Below are positions 3,450 through 27,714 of a DNA stretch of 64,000 nucleotides, one piece after another. A program made the translations under genes and the position numbers. This DNA comes from Vallitalea guaymasensis (GTDB taxonomy: Bacteria > Bacillota > Clostridia > Lachnospirales > Vallitaleaceae): positions 3,720,001-3,784,000 of the forward strand of contig NZ_CP058561.1 of assembly GCF_018141425.1 (NCBI RefSeq). Reading direction: 5' to 3'. Each line of letters opens with the position of its first letter. Position 1 is the first letter of the stretch. Under the pieces are notes generated by a model that saw only the letters and a list, made by a program, of their open reading frames with translations, was not told the DNA's origin and made no database searches.

Positions 3450-3507
3450 TTTTAGTACATTTTTAAAAAAAACATTTATAGCCGTTAGTTATGTTAATTA
3501 GAAAAAA

Positions 3508-3760
3508 AGTGTTTTGTGATTATATTGTAGATGCTAGGAAGCAAAATAGTATATGTATATGTGGAGTTGTGAGGCAGGACGCCGAACCCAGCTTTAATCT
3601 GACAGCCCTACTGGACTGTCAGGAATAATAATGGACTCGATGTCCATTATTATTCGTTGAGCTCAGGACGAGCAAGTAGCTGGCGTAACATATACATATA
3701 CTATTTTGCAATAACCAAGTCAGAACAAAACACTATTTCTGACTTACTTGCAATATAATC
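3508..3760 (+). ncRNA. structured intergenic repeat, copy 1 (candidate pseudoknotted RNA)
   Basis: This non-coding element shares long identical blocks with 27524-27714. A perfect 22-bp stem pairs 3541-3562 with 3688-3709. Inside it are hairpin 3573-3583 and hairpin 3661-3673, both with loop AGGAC, and a CCAGCT/AGCTGG helix (3588-3593 with 3678-3683). A 9-bp hairpin follows (3717-3725 with 3737-3745). Its loop region (3725-3734) is the exact complement of 3508-3517, while 3518-3527 is the exact complement of 3751-3760. The order A-B-A'-B' is a pseudoknot. Two extra hairpins at 3599-3622 and 3624-3654 are absent from copy 2. I do not recognise the family. The strand is assumed plus from the flanking genes. 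A short mobile element is the alternative. Confidence 0.6.
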
Positions 3761-3803: not shown

Positions 3804-3831
3804 TTGACATATTTATATTAAAGTATATAAT
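3804..3831 (+). promoter_or_regulatory. promoter of the cobalamin riboswitch/btu operon
   Basis: TTGACA (3804-3809), a 16-bp spacer and TATAAT (3826-3831) place the transcript start about 50 bases upstream of the riboswitch core. Confidence 0.7.
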
Positions 3832-3890
3832 AAAACTATCTTTGGATATATTTATATATAACATAAGATACTAAAATTTAATAGATGAAA

Positions 3891-4113
3891 AGGTACTCGT
3901 TGAGTTAAAAGGGAAAGTGGTTAAATGCCACTGCAGCCCCCGCTACTGTAAATGGTATGAAATCTAAAATGTCATTGGGAAACTGAGAAGACTAGAGAGT
4001 AAGTTAAGCCATAAGCCAGGAGACCTGCCTTTTTATAAGTTTTAAGCTTTCGGTGGGAGAGTGTAGATTCACATATTTATTTGTAATCTGACTGTGCCTT
4101 AGCACAGTTTTTT
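3891..4113 (+). promoter_or_regulatory. adenosylcobalamin riboswitch with intrinsic terminator
   Basis: The aptamer is recognised from its conserved blocks in order: the GTGGTTAAATGCCACTG segment, GCAGCCCCCGCTACTGTAA, then GCCAGGAGACCTGCCT (the B12 box, about 4014-4030). The downstream expression platform contains a clean terminator, ACTGTGC and GCACAGT (4091-4108) followed by six T. This layout implies transcription attenuation of the downstream uptake genes when the corrinoid is abundant. The transporter operon starts 87 bases after the terminator. Confidence 0.93.
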
Positions 4114-27285: not shown

Positions 27286-27340
27286 TCTATATATATAATT
27301 ATATAGGTATTAAATTAAAGAGACAACGGTTGTATATTGA

Positions 27341-27442
27341 AACCATATATAGTGATAATACTCTCGTTACGTTTGTTGCTTCTATCTGTTTTTAAGGTAT
27401 GGCAACAAGCCGTAAAAATCGTTATTATCATTATATATGGTT
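27341..27442 (+). other. compound hairpin in the nrdD-thyA intergenic region
   Basis: A 20-bp A+T-rich stem (27341-27360 with 27423-27442, one G-U) encloses a second stem made of TTACG/CGTAA and TTGTTGC/GCAACAA. There is no coding potential and no T tail. The downstream stretch to 27520 holds a further weak inverted repeat (TATTTACCA with TGGTAAATA). It is a candidate structured RNA or mRNA 3-prime element; the family is not recognised. Confidence 0.45.
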
Positions 27443-27523
27443 ATTTCTATATTTACCACTCTTGAGCCAGTAAAAAAAATGTGACGATGGTAATAGCCAA
27501 TAGTTATGGTAAATAGAAGAAAA

Positions 27524-27714
27524 AGTGTTTTGTGATTACATTGAAGATTACTCAAAGCAAAATAGTATATGTATATGTGGAGTAGTGAGGCAGGACGCCG
27601 AACCCAGCTTTTTGCTCAGGACGAGCAAGTAGCTGGCGTAACATATACATATACTATTTTGCAATAACCAAGTCAGAACAAAACAATATTTCTGACTTAC
27701 TTACAATATAAATC
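27524..27714 (+). ncRNA. structured intergenic repeat, copy 2 (candidate pseudoknotted RNA)
   Basis: This copy shares long identical blocks with 3508-3760. The 22-bp stem is identical (27557-27578 with 27641-27662). The twin AGGAC-loop hairpins, the CCAGCT/AGCTGG helix and the AAGTCAGAA/TTCTGACTT hairpin (27670-27678 with 27690-27698) are all kept. The A pairing (27524-27533 with the loop at 27678-27687) keeps 9 of 10 pairs. The B pairing (27534-27543 with 27704-27714) keeps most pairs with one mismatch and one bulge. The two extra hairpins of copy 1 are missing. It lies between nrdD and thyA in the same orientation as copy 1. Confidence 0.6.

Follow-up and report, generated by a model that had tools for sequence, protein, structure and literature searches.

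Two kinds of described RNA stand closest to the element analysed here. TwoAYGGAY (RF01731) was first listed in 2010 (PMC2864571) and has been proposed to be a CsrA-binding small RNA of Clostridia, in a paper according to which CsrA-sequestering small RNAs had at that time been identified in Gammaproteobacteria only (PMC4333381); a passage in another source still terms its function unexplored (PMC11661157). Rfam unites TwoAYGGAY with CsrB in clan CL00106. The CsrB repeat is given as CAGGA(U/A/C)G, with a SELEX consensus of RUACARGGAUGU (PMC7652899), and the core recognised in RsmE structures is A(N)GGAX (PMC4005645). E. coli CsrB has ten CA(N)GGANG motifs, one of which (CAGGACG) is the same 7-mer as in the element described below. 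A third point of comparison is provided by miniature mobile repeats (MITEs); the literature searched, as far as its text was accessible, contained nothing tying TwoAYGGAY or CsrA sites to MITEs, and co-mentions of CsrA and MITEs were unrelated.

The window, a 64,000-nucleotide stretch of the Vallitalea guaymasensis genome (G000; one contig, 5.63 Mb), contains two copies of this element (Table 1). An initial annotation had described a two-copy intergenic element folding as a pseudoknotted RNA. The blocks it placed at 3508-3760 and 27524-27714 are present there, with a 22-bp stem (P1) that is identical in both, although conservation reaches about 30 nt further upstream than the start it gave. 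Both copies fold far better than shuffled sequence (z -10.5 for copy 1 and -8.5 for copy 2; none of 200 shuffles was as good). The same type is carried by the MAG Vallitalea sp. McD1.25 (G005), and a BLAST search over 96 genomes gave matches in these two genomes only. Copy 1 is a long form, with about 64 nt containing two hairpins inside its apical stem; its orthologue in McD1.25 lacks them. On one side of copy 1 is a gene for an MgsA-type AAA ATPase, and on the other a promoter-like site leads to a cobalamin riboswitch (112 bits, 3874-4046) and on to an operon of periplasmic-binding, FecCD and ABC transporter genes. Copy 2 is flanked by genes for anaerobic ribonucleotide reductase and thymidylate synthase. 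Directly 5' of copy 2 lies another palindromic repeat (27310-27475), and similar sequence is found near three further copies in the genome (L010, L018, L024) and at one McD1.25 locus (L081).

Table 1. Positions of the two copies, their parts and a nearby promoter-like site in the window.
Feature	Position	Strand	Remark
Copy 1, long form	3479-3760	+	282 nt from TAGCC
Helix A 5' side, copy 1	3508-3517	+	Covariation and re-pairing test
Helix A 3' side, copy 1, within 3' hairpin loop	3725-3734	+	
Proposed helix B 5' side, copy 1	3518-3527	+	Partner 3751-3760; unsupported across copies
P1 5' arm, 22 bp, copy 1	3541-3562	+	
P1 3' arm, copy 1	3688-3709	+	
P2 hairpin GGC-AGGAC-GCC, first CsrA-type GGA loop, copy 1	3573-3583	+	
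P3a 5' side (CCAGCT), copy 1	3588-3593	+	Partner 3678-3683
Two extra hairpins of the optional insert, copy 1	3599-3655	+	In 25/53 copies; differs between orthologues
P3b hairpin GCTC-AGGAC-GAGC, second CsrA-type GGA loop, copy 1	3661-3673	+	
3' hairpin P4, copy 1	3717-3745	+	Mostly paired; no two-sided change (44 copies)
Sigma-A-like promoter TTGACA-16-TATAAT	3804-3831	+	Between copy 1 and the cobalamin riboswitch/transporter genes
Copy 2, short form	27494-27714	+	
Helix A 5' side, copy 2	27524-27533	+	Partner 27678-27687, 9/10
P1 5' arm, copy 2	27557-27578	+	Partner 27641-27662
P2 hairpin with GGA loop, copy 2	27589-27599	+	
P3b hairpin with GGA loop, copy 2	27614-27626	+	
3' hairpin P4, copy 2	27670-27698	+	

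The count of two holds inside the window only. Searching the genome with copy 2 by BLAST returned at least about 40 places (the best 40 of 106 candidates), and a covariance model (R1), built from 31 window-type copies (27 from V. guaymasensis and four from McD1.25), found at least 53 copies with both P1 arms among the best 150 of 5280 candidates, antisense echoes of palindromic copies being left out of the count. These comprise 28 short copies and 25 with the 64-nt insert, and fragments occur besides. The full core is absent from three more loci (L061, L064, L269); L027 looked incomplete in BLAST, yet has both P1 arms. R1 also matches 16 places in the genome at 73-88 bits, 14 of them within examined loci of other subtypes, and a few weaker ones. 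Only one of the 53 copies overlaps an ORF of at least 150 codons. The element is a dispersed, high-copy, short intergenic repeat, a nature beyond what one window could show. Three loci (L168, L175, L176) hold two family members each, at most about 300 bases apart and on opposite strands, and a further subtype (GGGAGTAAAGGGGTATGTG...GCCATGGACGGC) occurs at L168 and L176 as well as at L099 of the related genome G003.

The structure is strongly maintained. Over the 53 copies, 1163 of 1166 P1 cells are paired, and the 24 departures from the commonest pair consist of 14 two-sided changes, seven wobbles and three broken pairs. We also used a 44-copy set (37 copies from V. guaymasensis and seven from McD1.25; 31 short and 13 long), which leaves out incomplete copies and 15 long copies obtained later. 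In this set, the 500 shuffles fell short on all five measures of pairing and covariation, an outcome that is no probability because the copies are related. The second hairpin of the insert shows covariation at four pairs. Very probably, selection or some active process maintains the structure.

The outer parts of the proposed fold fared less evenly. Helix A pairs at ten of ten positions in copy 1 and nine of ten in copy 2, as the initial annotation had stated. Among the 44 copies both sides have changed at three pairs, and over nine of the ten positions 367 of 396 pairs form, compared with 360.2 ± 2.3 when partners are re-dealt (p 0.0085); covariation of helix A is modestly supported. Helix B pairs at ten of ten positions in copy 1 and eight of ten in copy 2, in the same register. 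Across the 44 copies, however, 240 of 440 positions are paired (at least eight pairs in eight copies), the level expected with re-dealt partners (235.7 ± 6.2, p 0.27), and helix B was therefore rejected. The 3' hairpin P4 is 86% paired in the same set with no two-sided change, and no U-run follows it in the sequence. Thus, of the A-B-A'-B' pseudoknot first proposed, helix A is what holds up, since helix B fails and the 3' hairpin has no two-sided change. That compensatory change maintains a structure has good support, and helix A has modest support. An outer pseudoknot is plausible in the window type, but it is not what the family conserves. The conserved heart is instead a long stem leading into a three-way junction with two GGA hairpins. 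CA(N)GGA(C/T)G occurs twice, once per arm, in all 53 V. guaymasensis copies. In 49 of these both arms have pentaloops (A-GGA-C/T), one nucleotide short of AYGGAY; four, among them L017, L022 and L028, have a single AUGGAC hexaloop and none has two.

Under strict filters, R1 matches six of 392 genomes: V. guaymasensis, McD1.25, three of the same genus (G001, G002, G003) and one from another family of the order (G035). A deeper search gave 13, 30, 1 and 13 matches in G001, G002, G003 and G035, respectively, and none in G004. Divergent relatives in four more genomes keep the three-way junction and both GGA loops while their stem sequences change. For the cross-species alignment we used 64 sense rows of 73, having dropped eight antisense echoes and one partial neighbour; eight rows are of the window type, the alignment is fitted to the structure of R1, and the copies are related rather than independent. 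Although the P1 sequences differ, 1316 of 1338 P1 cells are paired, and 21 of the 22 pairs have changed on both sides. For P2 the paired count is 190 of 192 cells and for P3 it is 753 of 830; 12 of the 13 P3 pairs show two-sided change. When the alignment is shifted by one column, 27-50% are paired. The P3b stem takes many forms (AAAC/GTTT, AATC/GATT, AGAC/GTCT, GCTC/GAGC and others). The loop it encloses is nearly constant, and CA(N)GGANG loops are found in 61 of 64 rows in P2 and 62 of 64 in P3b. The 3' hairpin is 84% paired here versus 46-47% when slid by one, in a part where the alignment is loosely fitted.

A link to a described family was not apparent from the window itself. At gathering thresholds, Rfam finds nothing in it but the cobalamin riboswitch, and RF01731 (gathering score 43 bits) has no match to either copy up to E 10. 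Matches of the copies to mir-335, mir-297, snoMe18S-Gm1358, P14 and the OppA thermometer, up to the same limit, were at chance level and were rejected. That Rfam offers no match of note even at E 10 explains why no known RNA family was recognised initially, a statement that is right for the two copies as Rfam sees them but wrong as to ancestry. RF01731 matches ten of 22 loci of relatives at 31.6-41.0 bits, below its cutoff, and two V. guaymasensis copies of another subtype exceed it (46.1 and 43.5 bits; 67.2 and 83.7 with R1). A copy in G009 scores 50.1 bits with RF01731 and 44.0 with R1. Conversely, R1 finds 17 of 20 RF01731 loci at 41-85 bits, with best E-values per locus of 2e-7 to 2.5e-17, missing two in G004 and one in G021, and it finds all 19 RF01731 loci of V. 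guaymasensis. Because R1 recovers these loci, above-cutoff copies included, the window type and TwoAYGGAY are almost certainly homologous. The window copies are not filed as members of RF01731, as they fail its score and its hexaloops; we class the window type as a divergent, high-copy sister subfamily. Across the class, a sample of 391 genomes yielded RF01731 matches at E 0.001 in 36, of which 27 exceed the cutoff; none of 14 control genomes matched. Since eight sampled genomes hold at least seven RF01731 places each, V. guaymasensis is not alone in its high copy number.

All 53 copies have at least two hairpin loops with A(N)GGA, the CsrA-binding consensus (PMC7652899; PMC4005645). V. guaymasensis encodes one CsrA (P0001) with L4 and R44, residues marked as critical (PMC7652899). 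Solved CsrA/RsmE chains that it matches include 2jpp, which has been shown bound to hcnA RNA (PMC7652899). CsrA is present in 33 of 40 relatives and in all ten of those with an RF01731 match at E≤1, an outcome with a chance expectation of about one in nine, and this co-occurrence is not discriminating. Two CsrA matches each were found in G001, G004, G035 and G039, and G001, G004 and G035 have 13 to 16 RF01731 matches each at E≤1.

Signs of mobility come from another genome (G427), where seven TwoAYGGAY copies share 93-99% identity along some 280-300 nt and end in an inverted repeat (TIR CTKYRATTCGTAATAT), with target duplications of 8-10 bp in five of the seven. This repeat occurs 64 times, against once for a reversed control pattern. 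Among these 64 listed matches, facing pairs span at most about 620 bp, and an autonomous transposon with this TIR was discarded as a candidate. The repeat encloses stretches between about 110 and 620 bp long as well (L208-L214), so a single TIR family seems to hold more than one kind of interior. Self-complementary flanks are present in all 20 copies from six other genomes (z 5.9 to 30). Each of two related copies in G060 (L222, L223) sits between long self-complementary arms (z 19 and 30). The arms of one locus are unlike those of the other, and the likeness of the loci is confined to 166 bp; the puzzle here is how unique arms turn palindromic. In 40 window-type copies, outer inverted repeats are absent on average (mean z 0.05, maximum 2.8), and across 37 copies the longest flanking direct repeat averages 6.86, identical to re-paired flanks (6.86, p 0.55).

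Comparing V. guaymasensis with McD1.25, both flanks were found at 13 loci. Four copies are intact in both genomes (L007, L023, L066, L072), seven are intact in V. guaymasensis and broken in McD1.25 (L002, L008, L011, L013, L018, L020, L062), and one is incomplete in both (L064). L014 has left no trace in McD1.25, which a deletion may also account for. Single copies are thus dispensable in McD1.25, given the seven broken there. In three of the four pairs intact in both genomes, one member has the 64-nt insert and the other does not, a difference suggestive of gene conversion between copies. Of 14 loci queried for McD1.25 flanks, five had no match on either side. At six loci (L003, L005, L016, L019, L021, L025), homology between the genomes starts at most about 120 bp from the right end of the element, with no left-side match in the stretch compared; these copies may mark rearrangement breakpoints. 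The 5'-truncated copies L061 and L064 brought retrotransposition to mind, an idea we dropped because McD1.25 has 3' losses too, with one junction at a short repeat. A phage or plasmid origin was set aside, since searches of phage and plasmid collections (blastn, E 0.01) gave no match in either; a generic core pattern matches exactly in three viral contigs (L249-L251). Overall, the repeat was probably mobile, at least formerly.

Several explanations other than a mobile CsrA platform have to be weighed. The reading first offered, a pseudoknotted RNA forming a class of its own with no known relatives, could draw on the modest covariation of helix A and on Rfam having no noteworthy match to either window copy. 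It is already contradicted by the chain of homology through R1 (17 of 20 RF01731 loci, E 2e-7 to 2.5e-17), and with helix B failing as well we consider it the least probable of all. Position relative to genes bears on two further possibilities. With genes called by longest ORF, the flanking orientations of the 53 copies are 25 ++, 14 --, 10 -+ and 4 +-; the bias in co-directional intergenes (25 vs 14) is not significant (binomial p about 0.11) and was discarded as evidence of a cis role. Of the 35 copies that face a gene, 23 have a promoter-like site after the element, compared with two of the 18 whose gene is reversed; in 22 of the 23, the -35 box starts 57-95 nt past P1. The left end mirrors this pattern, with such sites in 12 of 24 copies where a gene leads away leftward and in one of 29 otherwise. 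Sigma-A-type sites on the left that point into the element occur in three of 53 copies at p<0.05, which is chance level. This pattern is consistent with insertion being tolerated just outside promoters, and it speaks against both a leader element and a dedicated small RNA gene. A cis-regulatory leader or riboswitch of the downstream gene would fit the 35 co-directional copies and the Cis-reg type that Rfam gives TwoAYGGAY, although the table in the discovery paper has 'n' for cis-regulatory (PMC2864571). Such a role is highly unlikely given promoter-like sites beyond the element at either end, and the genes downstream of the two window copies, a FecCD-type transporter and thymidylate synthase, are unrelated. 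Dedicated small RNA genes with their own promoters, similar to CsrB/RsmZ, would agree with the paired GGA hairpins, the clan of TwoAYGGAY and the earlier proposal for Clostridia (PMC4333381). The chance-level upstream sites, counted for sigma-A type only, and the unfixed orientation to genes leave this only slightly less improbable than a leader.

The most serious competitor is a MITE-like mobile hairpin that acts at the DNA level and has no RNA function. Its structure would serve a transposase or be maintained by arm-to-arm correction during replication, with the GGA loops being part of the DNA hairpin tip. This would account for 53 dispersed intergenic copies, the missing L014, the TIRs and target duplications of the G427 copies, the self-complementary flanks in six other genomes, and the siting of elements immediately outside promoter-like sites at both ends, which tolerated insertion would produce. 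However, arm correction alone is insufficient, because P2, with its 3 bp, and the short stem of P3b change in a compensatory manner while the loop letters stay fixed. The window type, with its random-level outer repeats (40 copies) and target duplications (37 copies), also fits such a hairpin poorly. We therefore regard a purely DNA-level element as a possibility of about one in three.

The explanation we favour, at a probability of roughly 0.5, is a TwoAYGGAY-sister RNA carried on a dispersed, once or still mobile repeat and acting as a two-site CsrA platform. The computed basis consists of homology, compensated structure, near-invariant GGA loops, dispersal and a CsrA gene. P1 would close a three-way junction whose two arms display C-A(N)GGA-N-G loops; homodimeric CsrA recognises this core. 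When a neighbouring transcript reads through a copy, which is presumably how copies are transcribed, the hairpin could offer both sites to one CsrA dimer. Many copies might then jointly soak up CsrA, or tether it to their host mRNAs. Judging from the sequence, binding of CsrA by the element is about an even bet, while physiologically meaningful titration is rather doubtful. Several observations sit uneasily with the platform: the window copies escape RF01731 at E 10 and R1 misses three of its loci, 49 of 53 copies have the shortened loops in both arms, promoter-like sites into the element are at chance level with no U-run at the other end, the co-occurrence with CsrA could be chance, and seven of 13 comparable loci are broken in McD1.25. 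The structured high-copy repeat is real; a CsrA-binding platform it possibly is.

If the platform exists, what would surprise specialists is that a CsrA-type module is joined to a mobile repeat dispersed through a genome. Perhaps TwoAYGGAY and its relatives are mobile CsrA decoys of Clostridia, transposable hairpins that spread two-site modules into the transcripts of many genes, with copy number setting a CsrA buffer tuned by loop length (hexaloop to pentaloop) and gene conversion, though we would not bet on so general a role. A view from dispersed repeats, which in one genome lie within MITEs that have target duplications, asks whether a mobile repeat sets free CsrA, not which gene is regulated.

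Compared with MITEs, the window type is likewise short, intergenic and dispersed, but it has no detectable TIRs or target duplications, and its structure is kept by compensation in copies with differing flanks. With CsrB/RsmZ (RF00018 and relatives), which belong to the clan of TwoAYGGAY, it shares CAGGACG-type motifs and sites in pairs. Whereas CsrB/RsmZ is one RNA with many sites, the window type has two sites per copy in many dispersed copies, no own promoter detected, and putative CsrA binding. TwoAYGGAY is the closest: both have a three-way junction, two GGA hairpins with C-G closing pairs, a long variable closing stem and a high copy number. The window type differs in its pentaloops (both arms in 49/53 copies) in place of AYGGAY hexaloops, in lacking palindromic flanks, and in having an outer helix A and an optional 64-nt insert.
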